64,000 bases of DNA from an uncultured Caldilineaceae bacterium (GTDB lineage Bacteria; Chloroflexota; Anaerolineae; Caldilineales; Caldilineaceae): positions 2,378,722 to 2,442,721 of the forward strand of contig OY282381.1 in the NCBI GenBank assembly GCA_958295915.1, given 5' to 3'. The stretch's first letter is position 1. Each line of letters starts with the position of its first letter. The position numbers and the translations under genes are program-made. The notes below the pieces were generated by a model, which saw only the letters and a list, made by a program, of their open reading frames with translations, did no database searches and was not told the origin of the DNA. Below are positions 55,916 to 63,706 of the stretch, piece after piece.

Positions 55916-56028
55916 GCGCCTCTGATCACAGATTTGACCACTGATTTATGTGATTTGTATGATTGCCGTGATAACGGCAGTTCATCATCCCATCACACAA
56001 ATCAAGCGAATCAAAGGTCAAAGAGGCG
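55916..56028. repeat. Family C element flanked by family A arms
   Basis: Starts with GCGCCTCT and ends with AGAGGCG, the arms of family A. In place of the 7-base loop are about 97 bases of family C (GATCACAGATTTGACCACTG ... GAATCAAAGGTCA). Inside are the inverted segments GCCGTGATAACGGC and GATTTGTATGAT/ATCAAGCGAATC. Confidence 0.85.
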
Positions 56029-57365: not shown

Positions 57366-58208
57366 TCAAATGGGGAGCTTGCTTGTGGATGATCCGAATG
57401 GTTGTTCCATCAGGCGTTCGGCGATAACATCGGCCAGGCGCAGGTCGTAGTCGATGTGAGGCGCTTCCAGGAGTGTGATGGCCGGGTATCGTTGACGGGC
57501 AGCGGCCAGAAGGGCCGGCGCATCTTGGCGCAGGTGACGACCGCGATGCAGAAAATAGGGCAAGGCGACGATCTTCTGCGCGCCTTGGGCGGCGAGGGAT
57601 TCGATGGCATCAGTGATGCGGGGCGTGTTGCAATCCAGATACGCTGTGGCGGCGAGGGGATAGCCAGCCGTCTTGTGGACCCATGCTGTGAGCCGTCTGA
57701 CCGGCTCGTTGGCATCCTCCAGAGGCGTGCCGTGGGCCATCACCAGTAGGGCTGCGCGCCGTCTGTCCGCCGTGTTCGCCCCTATAGTTTCTGGTTTTGC
57801 GTTTTCAGTTTCGAGTAACGGCGCAGTTTCTGGATCGACCGTCCGCACCCTGTCCAGGGCGATGGCGGCCAGCTTCTCGTGGAAGCCAAGACAGGGCGCT
57901 ACCCGGATCGCCAAGCTGGGGAACTGCTGCGCCACCTTTCTCACATCCTCCGGCAGATCCTCCCGCACATACACCCCATCGATCAGAAAATAGGGCTGTA
58001 CCGCGATGGAGGTTGCGCCTGACCCCACGCATTTTGCGACTGCTTCGGCGAGGGTCGGACGGCTATAGTTGAGAAAGCCGGCCTCGGCTATGGGCGCAAC
58101 GCCCCGTTCCCGTAGGCGAGCAGCCAGCCGAATCATTGATGCGCCACTGTCACTGCGCAGGCTGCCATGGCCGATGAGGACGATGCCGTTCAAACAACCT
58201 ACTTCCAT
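57366..58208 (-). CDS. cbiX: CbiX-type sirohydrochlorin chelatase (two-domain)
   Basis: A 280-residue chelatase with two CbiX domains that inserts Fe or Co into sirohydrochlorin, probably iron here, for siroheme. The first domain reads GIVLIGHGSLRSDSGASM and AVQPYFLIDGVYVREDLP, the second LLVMAHGTPLEDANEPV and VALPYFLHRGRHLRQDAP; His of GHG and AHG are likely metal ligands. ATG 58208 was chosen over the TTG at 58223. The linker LLETENAKPETIGANTADR is encoded by a dispersed repeat (family E, 57784-57819), and the start region overlaps a second copy. cysH lies 71 bases upstream, so the pair serves sulfate reduction. Confidence 0.9.
   Translation of the reverse strand: MEVGCLNGIVLIGHGSLRSDSGASMIRLAARLRERGVAPIAEAGFLNYSRPTLAEAVAKCVGSGATSIAVQPYFLIDGVYVREDLPEDVRKVAQQFPSLAIRVAPCLGFHEKLAAIALDRVRTVDPETAPLLETENAKPETIGANTADRRRAALLVMAHGTPLEDANEPVRRLTAWVHKTAGYPLAATAYLDCNTPRITDAIESLAAQGAQKIVALPYFLHRGRHLRQDAPALLAAARQRYPAITLLEAPHIDYDLRLADVIAERLMEQPFGSSTSKLPI
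57784..57819. repeat. Family E repeat, in frame in cbiX linker
   Basis: TATAGTTTCTGGTTTTGCG and GTTTTCAGTTTCGAGTAACG. On the minus strand it is read as LLETENAKPETIG, between the two CbiX domains. A second copy is at 58207-58243. Confidence 0.75.
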
Positions 58209-58243
58209 AGTTTCTGGTTTCAAGTTTTTCGTTTCGAGTAACT
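58207..58243. repeat. Family E repeat at the cbiX start
   Basis: TAGTTTCTGGTTTCAAG then TTTTTCGTTTCGAGTAACTG. It holds the region directly upstream of cbiX ATG 58208, so the repeat supplies the 5' untranslated region and touches the start codon. Confidence 0.75.
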
Positions 58244-58278: not shown

Positions 58279-59004
58279 TTACGCCTGATGGAGACCGCAC
58301 TCGATCTTAGTCAGCCCGGCCCAGCGCCCGGCCCGCAAGTCGTCGCCGGGCTGGATGGCCTGGGTGCAGGGCCAGCAACCGATACTGGGATAGTTCTGCT
58401 CGTGCAGTTCGTTGTAGGGAACATTGTGCTGATGGATGTACGTCCAGACGTCCTCTTCGCTCCAGTGCACCAGGGGCGATATCTTCACGACTTCGTACTT
58501 TTCATTCCAGCGCAGCACCGGCGTACCGGCCCGCGTGGGTGACTGATCCCGCCGTAGCGCGGATACCCAAGCAGCGCTCTCTTGCAGCGCCTTTCCCATG
58601 GGCACGACTTTGCGTATGTGACAGCACTCGTCCGCGTCTTTTCGATAGAGGGTCAGCCCGTACGTTTGCTCCTGCTCGGCGACGCTCAGATCTGATGTCA
58701 CCCGACGGAAGGGCCGGTTATAGTGGCGCTGTGCCCGATCGATCAGGGCCAGGGTCTCTGGGAAAAAGTAGCCGGTGTCCACATAGAAGATGTCTACCTC
58801 CGGGTTGATACGCACAGCCATGTCGGTCAGAGCCATACCGCTGGCGCCGAAGGCTGTGCCGATCGAAAACCCCTCGCCGAAGTTTTCTATCGACCATTGC
58901 AAAATTTCTTCCGCAGACTTCTGTTCCAAACAGCGGTTCAGCTGGCTGAGAGAAGCCAGCCGCCAAGTATCCAATGAAAATGTTTCCTGCGCAAGTGCAA
59001 TCAC
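58279..59004 (-). CDS. cysH: Adenylyl-sulfate/phosphoadenylyl-sulfate reductase
   Basis: A 241-residue reductase that makes sulfite from APS (or PAPS) with thioredoxin. The paired cysteines Cys127-Cys128 and Cys210-x2-Cys213 are the ligands of the [4Fe-4S] cluster, which marks the APS-reductase type, and the C-terminal ECGLH motif (235-239) carries the catalytic Cys236. SIGTAFGASGMAL and FYVDTGYFFPET form the nucleotide site. GTG 59004 follows GAGGAA by a normal distance. A 5' leader of about 550 bases, with a polycysteine ORF and a consensus promoter, precedes it. cbiX follows on the same strand. Confidence 0.96.
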   Translation of the reverse strand: MIALAQETFSLDTWRLASLSQLNRCLEQKSAEEILQWSIENFGEGFSIGTAFGASGMALTDMAVRINPEVDIFYVDTGYFFPETLALIDRAQRHYNRPFRRVTSDLSVAEQEQTYGLTLYRKDADECCHIRKVVPMGKALQESAAWVSALRRDQSPTRAGTPVLRWNEKYEVVKISPLVHWSEEDVWTYIHQHNVPYNELHEQNYPSIGCWPCTQAIQPGDDLRAGRWAGLTKIECGLHQA

Positions 59005-59260
59005 AGTTCAGTTCCTCTGTCTATACAGGCGATGATGAGTACATCCACTTCGTGATCAGCAGCTGTCTGCGCTGATGTCACGCCTCTGCGGCGGGCTGAT
59101 CTGGGATGATTTCAGTTGTGCAAAAGGAAAGTTGAATGCGCCTTGGCTCGAAAGAGGCGCGATCCGGGACGCCCATCGACCGATGCGCGCAGACAGTGAC
59201 TGTCTCCCTGTGAACGCAGGGCCAACGCACAGATGTGGTTGATGAGCCTATATCAGAGAT
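59005..59260 (-). promoter_or_regulatory. cysH leader region with competing RNA pairings
   Basis: This is the 256-base untranslated part between the polycysteine ORF stop and cysH. In the leftward RNA, segment R1 AGACAG (59205-59200) can pair with R2 CTGTCT (59196-59191) in a local hairpin. R2 extended to CTGTCTGCGC (59196-59187) can instead pair over 10 bp with R3 GCGCAGACAG (59072-59063), about 50 bases before the cysH ribosome binding site. A family A hairpin (59138-59160) lies between them. No clear intrinsic terminator with a T-run is seen, so control may act on Rho or translation. Confidence 0.45.
59138..59160. repeat. Family A palindrome (inverse orientation) in cysH leader
   Basis: Arms GCGCCTTG and AAGAGGCGC with the loop in reverse-complement orientation (GCTCGAA). 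It lies in the transcribed cysH leader. Confidence 0.8.
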
Positions 59261-59449
59261 TTAACAACAACAACAGGGGCAACAACAGGAGGAGGTACAG
59301 CCGGTACAGAAGCAGCGCAGGGAGGAAGGAGCAACGATCTTGCTGGTTCGGATGATACGGGATTGTCTGCTGAATGATGCGCGCCCGATAGTGGCGCGCC
59401 GGACAAGCAATTCAAGCGGACGCGTTAAGTGATACGTTTGAATACGCAT
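59261..59449 (-). CDS. Polycysteine leader peptide upstream of cysH
   Basis: A 62-codon ORF with AGGAG nine bases before its ATG. Its last 17 codons encode CFCTGCTSSCCCPCCCC: ten Cys (46, 48, 51, 55-57, 59-62), ending directly at the TAA. It lies downstream of a consensus promoter (59560-59588) and 256 bases upstream of cysH on the same strand. Translation of the tail would depend on Cys-tRNA supply, as in the polycysteine attenuators described for mycobacterial sulfur operons. Part of its N-terminal half is encoded by a degenerate family B palindrome (59379-59400), so the peptide itself is probably not conserved. Alternatives are a metallothionein-like peptide or a RiPP precursor; no modifying enzyme is nearby. 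Confidence 0.65.
   Translation of the reverse strand: MRIQTYHLTRPLELLVRRATIGRASFSRQSRIIRTSKIVAPSSLRCFCTGCTSSCCCPCCCC
59379..59400. repeat. Degenerate family B palindrome in the polycysteine ORF
   Basis: GCGCGCCCGATAGTGGCGCG followed by CC. It differs from family B in the centre. It is read in frame as part of RRATIGRAS in the leader ORF. Confidence 0.6.
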
Positions 59450-59559
59450 TTCCTTGTGCTCCTGCAGATACCTGCGAATGAAAACTACAGTTGCCAGTAG
59501 GGGCAGGCTTGACGCCCACCCTAGGCAACCACAAGAGTTGTTCCTACCGCTGCAATTAT

Positions 59560-59588
59560 AGTATACACGAAGATGTGGGATATGTCAA
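59560..59588 (-). promoter_or_regulatory. Consensus promoter for the leader ORF and cysH
   Basis: On the minus strand TTGACA (59588-59583), a 17-base spacer and TATACT (59565-59560). The transcript would start near 59553, about 100 bases before the polycysteine ORF. The match is the best leftward promoter seen in this part of the window. Confidence 0.75.
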
Positions 59589-59666
59589 ACTCGAAAAAAG
59601 GCTTTGTCTGTCTTTTCACTCTATGCTATCGTTGGTTCCCAAATTCAATACAGAAAGGAACAGATA

Positions 59667-60752
59667 ATGACAACCCTATTCGGACGCAAATATGATCGGC
59701 GCACACTGCTGGACCGGGTTGGGGATATGTCCCAACTGGCCGGCGCGCGCAAAGCCGAGCTGGTAGAAGGCAACGAACGGGGTGCGGATCTGATCGAGGT
59801 TTTCAACGCCTCCGGTCTCTGCTTTTCTGTGCTGCCGGGGCGCGCGCTGGATATCGCCTCCGCTCACTACAAAGGTATGTCCCTCTGCTTTCGCAGCAGC
59901 ACCGGCGATGTCGGTCCCGCTTTCTATGAACCGCAGGGCAACGGCTGGCTACGGGGCTTCTTCGGTGGCCTGGTTACCAGCTGTGGCCTGACATTCACCG
60001 GTCATCCAGAGGTGGATCCTGAGGAAGAAAATGAGGAGTTGGGACTCCACGGCCGCCTGGCCTTCCTGCCGGCCAAAAATGTGGTGGCCAACGCCGACTG
60101 GGAGGATGACCAGTACGTCGTGCGCATCCACGGCAAGATGCGCGAGGCCGTGGTCTTCGGCACAAACCTGGAATTGACCCGGGAGATTTCCACCGTGCTC
60201 GGGGAGAAGTCGATCCATATCTTCGACCGTATCGAAAATCTCGCGGTGGATCCCTCGCCGCTGATGTTCGTCTACCACACAAATCCCGGCTTCCCGCTGT
60301 TGGACAGCGGCGCCCGTCTGTTGATCAACAGTGAAAAGACCACCGAATGGCTGGAGGATCGGGAAGTTGGCCCGGATATATACGCGGTCGCCTCGCCGCC
60401 CCAGCCGCAGGCCCGCGACGATGTCTTCGTCCACCGGCCCATCGCCGACGCCGACGGGAATGTGCATGTAGGCTTGGTCAACGATGGCCTCGGGCTGGGC
60501 CTGTACTGGCAATTCCCCATCGCCGAAATTCCCCTGGTCAACCATTGGCAGCACTTCCACCGGGGCGCATACGTTACCGGTGTCGAGCCGGGAAACGTCA
60601 GCATGTTGGGGCGGGCTTGGAACCGCAAGGCCGGTTATCTGACCTACATTCAGCCCGGCGAAGTGCGGACATTCCATCTGGAAATCGGGGTCCTCGACGG
60701 GGCCGAAGAGATCAGCGCCTTCGAGCGCAAGCTGCGAGGAGAGAGAGAATAG
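59667..60752 (+). CDS. DUF4432 aldose-1-epimerase-like protein
   Basis: A 361-residue protein of the DUF4432 family, related to aldose 1-epimerases (galactose-mutarotase fold), whose members are found in sugar-catabolic clusters. Segments are LPGRALDIASAHYKGMSLCFRSSTGDVGP, GWLRGFFGGLVTSCGLTFTGHPEVDPEEE, LGLHGRLAFLPAKNV, YHTNPGFPLLDSGARL and VTGVEPGNVSMLGRAWNR. AAAGGA before ATG 59667 fixes the start; the longer frame from 59604 lacks similarity. It diverges from the cysH leader promoter and is convergent with the MFS gene at 60.8 kb. Confidence 0.9.
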   Translation: MTTLFGRKYDRRTLLDRVGDMSQLAGARKAELVEGNERGADLIEVFNASGLCFSVLPGRALDIASAHYKGMSLCFRSSTGDVGPAFYEPQGNGWLRGFFGGLVTSCGLTFTGHPEVDPEEENEELGLHGRLAFLPAKNVVANADWEDDQYVVRIHGKMREAVVFGTNLELTREISTVLGEKSIHIFDRIENLAVDPSPLMFVYHTNPGFPLLDSGARLLINSEKTTEWLEDREVGPDIYAVASPPQPQARDDVFVHRPIADADGNVHVGLVNDGLGLGLYWQFPIAEIPLVNHWQHFHRGAYVTGVEPGNVSMLGRAWNRKAGYLTYIQPGEVRTFHLEIGVLDGAEEISAFERKLRGERE

Positions 60753-60803: not shown

Positions 60804-62162
60804 TCACTGCGGTTGCCGGGCGCGCAATTCCGCCCGGCCCAGAAACAGACAGATGGCGAGCAGAAACAAAACCATCGAATAGTTAATACCCAGCGCGCTC
60901 TGAAAACTCCAGATATCGGCGAAGATCCCAGTCCACAGCGGCGGAAGCATTGCGCCTGCAATCATCGCCACATTGAGAGTGCCGGTAACGGCGCCGCTAT
61001 GGGCCGGATAGAGCCGCGATCCGTAGGCCAGGGCCGTGGGAAAGAGGCCGGACAGACTCAGCCCTGTGAGGAACACACCGACCCCCAACAGTATTGGCTC
61101 CGCGCTGAACACCACCAGCGGATAGGTGAGGGCAAGGCCCAGAGCCAGTATCAGCAATGTTGTGGCATAGCCCAGTCGCTCGGCGAATGCGGCGCAGACG
61201 AAACGGCCGGCAGTCAGGGCCACGTAAAAGACGGAGATCATCGAGACTGAGAAAAATGTGGAAAGGCCGGCGGAGTTCTGCATAAAGACAGCGACCCAAG
61301 CTAGCAGACTATAGGCAACGCCGTTGTAGATGAATGCGATCAGGAATAGCGCCAGAAAGCTGTTGCAATGCTCCTCTGCTCGAAAGAGGCGCGAAATGCG
61401 GTTCCACAACATGCCCCAAGCCAGCCTCTGTTCCTTTTCGACCACAGATTTGTGTGATTTGTATGATTGCCGTGATAACGGCAGTTCATCATCCCCGTCA
61501 CATACATCAGGCGAATCAGAGGTCAAAGAGGCGCGATACAGGAATGTGCCCCCTCCATAGACCAGCCAGATGAGACCCGTTGCGGCCAATGCCCAGCGCC
61601 AGGGCAATCCCCGCTCGAGGGTAAAGCCGATGACCAAAGGTGAAATGGTCGCGCCCACGCCGTACACCCCATGCAGCACATTCAGCGCACGGGCGCGGGT
61701 GGCCCGATTGGCATCGGCGATCAGCGCATTGATAGCGGTCGTGAGGGAGGCTTGAGCTGTGCTGATCAGCACAAAACCGACGACGAACAGCAGCCACAAC
61801 CGGGCAGAGGCCGCCAGGGTCAAGGAAGCCGCCAGCACCAGGGCCGAGAGCCAAACCAGGCTGCTGCGCCCGTAGCGATCGGAGCCGACACCGGCCAGCA
61901 GATTGCCCAGGATCCCGCCCGCAGCTCGGGCCGGGAAGATCAGCCCGATAGCCGCCAGGGTCAGGCCTGTGGCCATATATTCCTCAGTGATAAACGGCAT
62001 CACCGACGGGATGAGGACAGCGGCTGTGCCGGTGAACAGGTAGCCGGTCAGGCCGAGAGCGGTCAGCGGCGGATCTTGCGCGGCGCCGCGCGGCGCGGTT
62101 CCTTCGGCGGAAGGCCGAGGCTCCCCTTCCGCATGGTGGTTCACTTTTTGCATGTGGATCAC
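60804..62162 (-). CDS. MFS transporter with two repeat insertions in the central loop
   Basis: A 452-residue major facilitator protein with 12 helices. The first half has GLIFPARAAGGILGNLLAGVGSDRYGRSSLVWLSAL (motif A) and RARALNVLHGVYGVGATISPLV; the second half has GLSLSGLFPTALAYGSRLYPAHSGAVTG. Between helices 6 and 7, residues about 211-242 (SLTSDSPDVCDGDDELPLSR onward) are encoded by a family C element, and about 258-267 (RLFRAEEHCN) by family A, both in frame. The start is GTG 62162, overlapping the metal permease stop by 4 bases; ATG 62153 is an alternative. It may be co-transcribed with the metal permease genes; the substrate is unknown. Confidence 0.88.
   Translation of the reverse strand: MIHMQKVNHHAEGEPRPSAEGTAPRGAAQDPPLTALGLTGYLFTGTAAVLIPSVMPFITEEYMATGLTLAAIGLIFPARAAGGILGNLLAGVGSDRYGRSSLVWLSALVLAASLTLAASARLWLLFVVGFVLISTAQASLTTAINALIADANRATRARALNVLHGVYGVGATISPLVIGFTLERGLPWRWALAATGLIWLVYGGGTFLYRASLTSDSPDVCDGDDELPLSRQSYKSHKSVVEKEQRLAWGMLWNRISRLFRAEEHCNSFLALFLIAFIYNGVAYSLLAWVAVFMQNSAGLSTFFSVSMISVFYVALTAGRFVCAAFAERLGYATTLLILALGLALTYPLVVFSAEPILLGVGVFLTGLSLSGLFPTALAYGSRLYPAHSGAVTGTLNVAMIAGAMLPPLWTGIFADIWSFQSALGINYSMVLFLLAICLFLGRAELRARQPQ
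61370..61392. repeat. Family A palindrome, in frame in MFS gene
   Basis: GCTCCTCT, GCTCGAA, AGAGGCGC: the inverse orientation with one changed arm base. On the minus strand it is read as RLFRAEEH within the central loop of the transporter. Confidence 0.85.
61440..61534. repeat. Family C element, in frame in MFS gene
   Basis: Starts GACCACAGATTTGTGTG and ends GGTCAAAGAGGCGC. It is a shorter relative of the 55.92-56.03 kb element and keeps GCCGTGATAACGGC at its centre. It encodes about 32 residues of the transporter's central loop without a stop. Confidence 0.85.
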
Positions 62163-63706
62163 TCCCCACCCGTCTCGGTGGTCAGCTGAGTTTGCCGAAA
62201 CATACGCGCGTGCGTCTCCCCGCGCGCGGTGAGGGAAACGAGATCGGCCTCTGTCTGCACCAGATTGCGCGCGCGTAGCTGGCGCAGGACGCGCTGCATT
62301 TTCGTTGGTGACCAGCGAAAATGGCGGTGTAGTGTCGAGGCGGTTACTTCATCACTTTCGGCAACGCGGCCCTGGTGGCGATGAATGTGGCCGAGGACGA
62401 CCTGATGGTCGAAGCTGCGTCGTTGGTTGCTGCGCCGGATCATCGTTGAGACCAGACCATATTTGGGTGAGAAAATCCAAGCGGCCAGGAAGAAGAAAAA
62501 GATCATCAGCACCATCGAAGCGGAGATAGACGAATCCCATTTCTCTATCAGATCCAGGCCAAAGAGATCGTTCAACCCGGCGAGGATATCGCTGATCTGC
62601 GCCAGACCCAGAAGATTGCCGCGAGCCAGGTCGTACCCTAAGTACGCCCCTGCGGCGCCGATCAGCGAACTGTACACGAGCATCCGGGGCAGGCGGTCGG
62701 TCAGCAGGTAGGCTGCGGCCGGCGGAATGATAAAAAAGGCGACGACCAAAATCGATCCAACCGCGTCAAATGCGCCAACCGCCACCAAACTGACCATGAC
62801 CATCAACCCATAGTGCAGCAGCGTAGGGTGAAACCCCAGCGCCGCAGCCAGCGTTGGGTCAAAGGTCGAAAGTTTTAGCTCCTTATAGAACAGAACGACA
62901 ACAATGGTGGTGAGCAGCGTCATCACGGCCATGACCGTGATCGACTTAGGCCAAAAAACCAGAAGCGGCTCCTTCTGCGTGAAGCCCGCCTGCCAGGCCT
63001 GCGCTGGGCTGTAGTCACCGCAGTTGGCGCAGATTTCGGTGAACTCGGCCTCTTTATCGCGGGGGCTGATGCCCAACCTACGACAATTGACGCATTGGCG
63101 CGTGAATTCGGCGCGCGGGTCGTTTGGAGTAATTGTCACCGAGTCACAGCTATATTCGGGCTTCGCACGATGCGCGCCATCCGCGGTGCGCTCAGCCTGA
63201 ACCAGACAGTGGCTGTTGGTATTGGCCCAAGCCACGCCGATCTCGCCAACCATCACAGCATCTTCGTCCAGGTGAACATCATCGACAAAGCGCGACACGA
63301 TAATCACGGCCAAGGCAAACAGCAGCGGAAAAGCCAGCCCCAGAGCTGCATCCTGCTTGACCAGCCCTGAACGGTAGATCAGTTCGGTCAGGATCACCGT
63401 TGCCACCCCGGCGGCCGCAGCCCCGATGATCAGCCAGACTGAAGAGAGATCAGGCTTTTGCCCAAGTATAGAGCTCATCAGCATAAAGGCTACCACAATG
63501 CCTAAAAGCACGGTGTGGCTGATGGCGTCACTGGTGAGTGACATCCCCCGCAGGAGCAAAAATGTGCCCAGCAGCGCGCCAGATACGGCAATCAGACTGC
63601 CGACAAGTGTGGCGGTATACTGGGGATTGCGCAGGAAGGCGTTCAGATCTTCTCTGGCCACGAAATTTAATAGGAATTGGACGATAAGTCGCTCAAGCTG
63701 AAACAT
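62159..63706 (-). CDS. Metal ABC transporter permease fused to a DtxR-like domain
   Basis: A 515-residue membrane protein of the ZnuB/MntB family (Mn, Zn or Fe import). Helices and the family loop GMSLTSDAISHTVLLG (residues 54-69), then ELKLSTFDPTLAAALGF and AVGSILVVAFFIIPPAAAYLLTDRL are normal. Two additions are unusual. Residues about 160-250 form an insert with two CxxC pairs (CVNC 205-208, CANC 226-229). The C-terminal 80 residues (ASTLHRHFRWSPTKMQRVLRQLRARNLVQTEAD) are winged-helix DtxR/MntR-like. Metal-dependent gating or sensing is possible. An upstream related gene continues beyond the right edge. Confidence 0.9.
   Translation of the reverse strand: MFQLERLIVQFLLNFVAREDLNAFLRNPQYTATLVGSLIAVSGALLGTFLLLRGMSLTSDAISHTVLLGIVVAFMLMSSILGQKPDLSSVWLIIGAAAAGVATVILTELIYRSGLVKQDAALGLAFPLLFALAVIIVSRFVDDVHLDEDAVMVGEIGVAWANTNSHCLVQAERTADGAHRAKPEYSCDSVTITPNDPRAEFTRQCVNCRRLGISPRDKEAEFTEICANCGDYSPAQAWQAGFTQKEPLLVFWPKSITVMAVMTLLTTIVVVLFYKELKLSTFDPTLAAALGFHPTLLHYGLMVMVSLVAVGAFDAVGSILVVAFFIIPPAAAYLLTDRLPRMLVYSSLIGAAGAYLGYDLARGNLLGLAQISDILAGLNDLFGLDLIEKWDSSISASMVLMIFFFFLAAWIFSPKYGLVSTMIRRSNQRRSFDHQVVLGHIHRHQGRVAESDEVTASTLHRHFRWSPTKMQRVLRQLRARNLVQTEADLVSLTARGETHARMFRQTQLTTETGGE

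Follow-up and report, generated by a model that had tools for sequence, protein, structure and literature searches.

The cysH gene of an uncultured Caldilineaceae bacterium lies behind a short open reading frame (ORF) that ends in a run of cysteine codons. This conserved tail is by far best read as the mark of a leader ORF that likely senses cysteine and, judging from the sequence, the leader as a whole is probably a cysteine-responsive translational attenuator, in which a stalled ribosome would expose the ribosome-binding site of cysH.

Organisation of the cysH leader

The elements of the locus, given below in window coordinates, all lie on the minus strand; the window is the whole 64,000-nucleotide stretch of DNA analysed here, and the source genome comprises 5.06 Mb in one contig.

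59560..59588, minus: promoter TTGACA-N17-TATACT (TTGACA 59588-59583, spacer of 17, TATACT 59565-59560; 11 of 12 consensus positions matched)
59459..59463, minus: Shine-Dalgarno-like AGGAG of the leader ORF; a GGAG(C/T) stretch is kept in the genus alignment
59261..59449, minus: leader ORF of 62 codons with a poly-Cys tail; the same ORF is present in 17/17 genus genomes
59264..59314, minus: proposed sensor, the pyrimidine-rich final 17 codons with ten Cys (ACCTCCTCCTGTTGTTGCCCCTGTTGT)
59254..59259, minus: 5' strand of helix P0, UCUCUG, complement of the cysH Shine-Dalgarno region (RNAalifold consensus), starting one base past the stop codon
59171..59247, minus: hairpin domain P1-P3, kept in 17/17 genus genomes (P1, 59247-59241 with 59177-59171; P2, 59230-59224 with 59191-59185; P3, 59221-59217 with 59210-59206)
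59011..59018, minus: cysH Shine-Dalgarno region (AGAGGAAC), its AGAGG invariant in 17/17 genomes
58279..59004, minus: cysH, (phospho)adenylyl-sulfate reductase, 241 aa, GTG start (PF01507)
57366..58223, minus: CbiX-family sirohydrochlorin chelatase, the next gene 3' of cysH (PF01903)

An earlier note on this DNA had described the promoter, the AGGAG nine bases ahead of the leader ATG (AGGAG 59463-59459, ATG 59449-59447), the 62-codon ORF, whose last 17 codons include ten Cys, and the 256 bases that separate its stop (TAA, 59263-59261) from the GTG of cysH (59004-59002); all of these proved exact to the base. Within the genus alignment of 17 genomes, the TTGACA of the promoter is invariant and the -10 element is either TATACT or TATAAT. 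CysH was identified by PF01507 and by NCBIfam NF002537 and TIGR00434, both above their cut-offs, and the CbiX-family chelatase encoded next to it presumably has a role in siroheme for sulfite reductase. ATP-sulfurylase (PF01747) was not found in genome G000, though cysH is present there; sulfate activation in that genome may be of the CysDN type, as a second PAPS_reduct-like match (L002) could suggest. Elsewhere in the window, an identical 20-mer (ATGATTGCCGTGATAACGGC) occurs at 55959-55978 and at 61463-61482, both intergenic (0.02 expected), and represents an interspersed repeat, and a metal ABC permease (ABC-3) ORF at 62159-63706 contains an odd mid-protein Cys-containing stretch and a long C-terminal tail beyond the permease domain.

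The cysteine tail is specific to the leader ORF and conserved in the genus

We then applied a strict Cys-tail test, which accepts ORFs of 15-150 codons with at least five Cys in the last ten codons. Just one of the 1,041 window ORFs of 15-150 codons on both strands passes this test, namely the leader ORF. The pattern TGYTGYTGYNNNTGYTGYTGY occurs a single time in the 5.06-Mb genome, again at the leader ORF, while in relatives it also matches unrelated TGC-type repeats. In a poly-Cys pattern search of 61 genomes, the 30 loci viewed besides the cysH leaders were mostly TGC-type repeats or ORFs whose Cys run does not lie close to the stop codon, and a reversed-pattern control of this search gave similar counts in many genomes.

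In agreement with the earlier note, the host is non-actinobacterial: it belongs to the Chloroflexota, and its genus is assigned to the Caldilineaceae. The genus set comprises 17 genomes, the source genome and 16 others, and in the latter the ORF reads MRIQTY...SSCLC-TSSCCC..., with its stop codon 241-259 nt upstream of the cysH match. The leader ORF passes the strict test in 13 of the 17 genomes, and in all 17 it carries 4-10 Cys within the last 17 codons, the last Cys falling at codon -1 or -2, with a stop codon that varies between TAA, TAG and TGA. Alignment gaps are divisible by three in nine of ten distinct cases inside the ORF as against 5 of 23 past the stop codon. In addition, pN/pS is 0.62 in the frame of the ORF, compared with 0.67 in frame +1 and 1.04 in the remaining frame (15 of the 17 ORFs); since the first value is scarcely below that of frame +1, substitution patterns by themselves argue only weakly for translation. 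Codon choice in the tract is skewed towards TGT (91 of 122 Cys codons) and TCC (116 of 151 Ser codons) relative to nine window genes (13 of 40 and 40 of 184, respectively), the sequences being related and not independent. Finally, no Cys-tailed leader was found at the sulfite reductase genes of the genus, either in 30 loci with 1.5-kb flanks or in ten longer stretches.

A conserved RNA domain separates the leader ORF from cysH

RNAalifold analysis of the 17 leaders predicted P0, P1-P3 and a further helix, H2, which is partly kept in the source genome. In P0, the post-stop hexamer UCYCUG pairs with the Shine-Dalgarno region of cysH, leaving one A bulged; all six pairs are present in 16 of the 17 genomes, and L007 keeps four of the six. 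When the post-stop columns were permuted, as many Shine-Dalgarno bases were paired in 6 of 300 permutations, and an equal energy was gained in 76 of 300, marking the energy gain of P0 as ordinary. The P1-P3 domain is paired in 98.6% of cells (15 distinct rows), and one of its pairs shows a compensating change, so that covariation is slight. In column shuffling, P1-P3 had a z-score of -5.1, the H2 domain one of -3.3 and the whole leader one of -4.1, with 0 of 100 shuffles as low in each case. Furthermore, a covariance model of P1-P3 detected exactly one copy per genome in all 17 genomes of the genus and, under stricter filters, one weak match in the other 29 Caldilineaceae genomes (G029:C16:104861-104962, E 3.6e-4). 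A search against Rfam returned no family over its gathering score and three sub-threshold, chance-like matches. We note that the stretch after P1 is about 33 bases longer in the source genome than in the other 16 genus genomes (window 59117-59162), and that the added bases include a GCGCC/GGCGC inverted repeat.

The cysH Shine-Dalgarno site is predicted to be mostly paired in the full leaders (mean unpaired 0.13). Its best complement on average is the Ser/Cys tract, and its main partner lies within the Cys tract in 11 of 18 leader folds. This complementarity is no better than that of synonymous recodings of the tract (mean -9.45 vs -9.07, sd 0.46), and when the RNA was removed in a simulation as far as 6 nt beyond the stop codon, the mean accessibility of the site rose from 0.13 to only 0.29, other segments still masking it. 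When post-stop duplexes were ranked in 25 leaders, they were convincing in few (L006, L152, L168), and few other genera show marked P0-like complementarity. A scan of positions 58900-59700 for intrinsic terminators found none; past the P1-P3 hairpin, the sequence is of the GCGCCCGC type and not a run of T.

Cysteine-rich leader ORFs head cysH operons across the Caldilineaceae

The regions upstream of cysH in relatives, where the earlier note had expected ORFs with Cys-rich tails, bore out this expectation in most cases. We found cysH in 36 of the 46 Caldilineaceae genomes searched, and 29 of these 36 have such an ORF at the operon head, Cys-tailed in 25 and Cys-rich in four (genus g16). Besides the source genus, seven Caldilineaceae genera thereby have a Cys-tailed or Cys-rich ORF heading the cysH operon. 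Where cysH is the first gene of the operon, the leader precedes cysH (g1; g5, G020; g7, G034 and G063), and where another gene comes first, it precedes that gene (g15, G030; g11, G026; g3, G018 and G069; g2, G017). Among the six Caldilineaceae first-gene proteins tested, all are members of the NIR_SIR family, and four exceed the NCBIfam NF010029 cut-off for sulfite reductase (one each in g15 and g11 and two in g3), those of g2 and g16 being NirA-like. The ORFs of different genera have unrelated N-termini and differ in length and Cys spacing, with the Cys tail persisting; at the DNA level, the tail keeps codons resembling ACC-TCC/CCC-TGT-TGT even where residues change (Thr-Ser, Thr-Pro, Ile-Pro, Ser-Ser). 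Since the N-termini vary and the tail stays, it is the Cys codons, and not the peptide product, that seem to be selected.

The earlier note had taken relatives whose cysH lacks a Cys-rich ORF to speak against a leader of this kind. Every one of the 17 genomes of the genus has the ORF, but four Caldilineaceae genomes showed no clear leader although enough sequence was available upstream: G021, G025, G068 and, ambiguously, G028. The last of these has an ORF (L162) that passes the strict test, but is located about 830 nt upstream of cysH, where a longer ORF overlaps it, and was left uncounted. The second cysH copy of G018 is likewise without a leader, and three further genomes (G029, G066 and G067), whose contigs end 254-317 nt before cysH, fall outside the tally.

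The four g16 genomes (L282-L285, corresponding to G036, G062, G031 and G061) have a Cys-rich ORF before the operon, ahead of the gene for the NirA-like reductase. In all four, a strong intrinsic terminator lies 3' of this ORF in the form of the same 25-base hairpin (10-11 bp) followed by seven T (terminator scan on L285), with a competing hairpin upstream of it. The g16 leader is thus apparently a classical, textbook-looking transcription attenuator, in which the sensor would have been kept and the output exchanged.

Outside the Caldilineaceae, we examined 102 cysH loci, of which 60 were named loci in other bacteria, 40 were upstream stretches from other Chloroflexota (picked from 96 genomes with cysH among 301 searched) and two came from other families of the class; none of their 7,179 ORFs passed the strict test. 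A looser test matched in five of the 40 Chloroflexota stretches, of which only L215 looked real, pointing to family f41. In genus g76 of this family, a 53-codon ORF lies between a gene of the NIR_SIR family and cysH in 9 of 12 genomes. This ORF ends in C(T/S)CC(C/S)C.CTCACIRGVVV or near it, the IRGVVV end being invariant, and its start overlaps the 3' end of the upstream gene (L239-L241, L243-L246, L248, L249). A tenth g76 genome, L242, shares the tail DNA and was kept out of this count as the ORF was missing from its ORF list. We are evenly divided on a wider reading of these data, in which cysteine attenuation would be a family-wide module of Caldilineaceae sulfur assimilation that keeps a pyrimidine-rich Cys-codon sensor (ACC-TCC/CCC-TGT-TGT) and swaps the output RNA, from site masking with a genus-specific hairpin domain in the source genus to an intrinsic terminator in g16, with a second, possibly independent Cys leader in f41.

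Proposed mechanism and alternative explanations

In the mechanism that we propose, a ribosome supplied with ample cysteine would reach the stop codon of the leader ORF and depart, after which the post-stop hexamer, perhaps together with the pyrimidine-rich tract, would pair with the cysH Shine-Dalgarno site, leaving cysH little translated. The P1-P3 domain would serve to draw the hexamer and Shine-Dalgarno ends together. When cysteine is short, scarce Cys-tRNA would hold the ribosome at the final Cys codons. Its leading edge, which would extend about 10 nt beyond the codon that follows the A site, would then shield the hexamer and so free the site. The same sensor would head sulfite reductase-cysH operons elsewhere in the Caldilineaceae, with other output RNAs. 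Counting against this scheme, P0 would stay out of reach of a ribosome that stalls as early as the first Cys codons, which lie 12-17 codons upstream.

The cysteine-responsive attenuator put forward in the earlier note therefore stands in one half. A sensing leader ORF is the best reading of a tail found in 17/17 genus genomes and in other genera, whereas a transcriptional output of the trp type is not supported in the source genus, as the leader has no intrinsic terminator. Together with a site that is predicted to be paired, mainly with the tract, this absence makes masking of the Shine-Dalgarno site the likeliest output, despite the null recoding test and an opening to only 0.29, and leaves Rho-dependent transcription attenuation as its main rival. 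Here, once the ORF is finished, Rho would bind C-rich, G-poor RNA and stop transcription before cysH, and a ribosome held on the Cys tract would cover this RNA. The genome encodes Rho, an intrinsic terminator was not found in the leader, the linker after P1 is rich in C (0.31-0.38) and poor in G (0.05-0.17) in 17/17 genomes, the Cys tract is 67-80% pyrimidine in 12 Caldilineaceae leaders, and the same idea appears in the treatment of Mycobacterium cys leaders in PMC1262725. However, the C-minus-G excess of tract and linker reaches merely the 83rd-93rd percentile of 60-nt windows in the window DNA, the linker is only about 40 nt long in relatives, and the conserved hairpin domain would be left unexplained; on balance, we consider termination by Rho rather unlikely. 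Attenuation through an intrinsic terminator and antiterminator is improbable at this locus. It has a precedent in the same family, in g16, where a Cys-rich ORF, an upstream hairpin and a 10-11 bp hairpin with seven T occur in 4/4 genomes, but a consensus scan of the cysH leader gave 0 terminators, and it is not T that follows the strong P1-P3 hairpin.

The remaining alternatives place the function in the peptide or in the RNA alone. The Cys-rich peptide might itself be active, perhaps as a small protein that binds metals or thiols, its place before cysH being secondary, as its ten Cys in 17 residues and the g16 and f41 peptides, which are Cys-rich internally and not strictly at the end, could suggest. 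Against this, peptide lengths, N-termini and Cys spacing vary between genera, one record only among 5.77 billion proteins shares words with the ORF of L016, and the signal of purifying selection is weak (pN/pS 0.62), and we give an active peptide little credence. Least probable of all is a P1-P3 domain acting as a riboswitch-like aptamer to which the ORF is incidental: strong conservation at one copy per genome would fit such an element, but no Rfam family does, and, bar the weak G029 match, P1-P3 is limited to the source genus, while the Cys tail occurs without it in seven other genera.

Comparison with known systems

In translational attenuators of the erm and cat type, a ribosome stalled on a leader ORF unmasks a downstream Shine-Dalgarno site, the signal being a drug. 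The cysH leader as we interpret it would differ in that its signal would be the supply of Cys-tRNA and in that the masking strand would lie just past the stop codon. Transcription attenuators of the trp and his type rely on successive control codons that specify the end product; in comparison with these, the leader of the source genus is without a terminator, whereas that of g16 has one. To our knowledge, poly-Cys attenuators were previously known from Actinobacteria only. In line with the earlier note, which knew of no such leader for Chloroflexota cysH, the literature that we searched, mainly open-access papers with few from subscription journals, describes no Cys leader in this phylum, and none is described in the relevant sections of PMC4833913 and PMC2965389.

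In the present data, eight genera of another phylum have a sensor of this kind heading the operon, and their output RNAs differ. The Caldilineaceae leaders could thus provide a natural series on how a codon-run sensor is rewired between translational and transcriptional control, and the leader would add a control element, so far unannotated, to sulfate assimilation in uncultured bacteria.

The mycobacterial polycysteine short ORFs of Canestrari et al. 2020 are presented, where cited in PMC13236596, PMC9094748 and PMC9031893, as cysteine-responsive, leaderless and attenuating, and the passage in PMC13236596 terms their output translation attenuation. The likeness that the earlier note saw to these elements holds for the run of Cys codons, placed close to the stop of a short ORF that precedes a sulfur or cysteine gene, but not for the way in which translation would begin: those ORFs are described as leaderless, whereas the cysH leader ORF lies about 110 nt behind the predicted start site/-10 and has a Shine-Dalgarno site (AGGAG). 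It also ends 256 nt before its gene and is then followed by a conserved hairpin domain. Seliverstov et al. 2005 predicted Cys leader peptides in Mycobacterium, Propionibacterium acnes and Bifidobacterium longum and, in the part of PMC1262725 that deals with them, proposed Rho as the effector. Like the cysH leader, these are described there as having their Cys runs close to the stop codon and no intrinsic terminator; they precede cys operons or cbs. They belong to Actinobacteria, and that part of the paper reports no conserved hairpins for them, in contrast to the conserved domain of the source genus and the terminator of g16.
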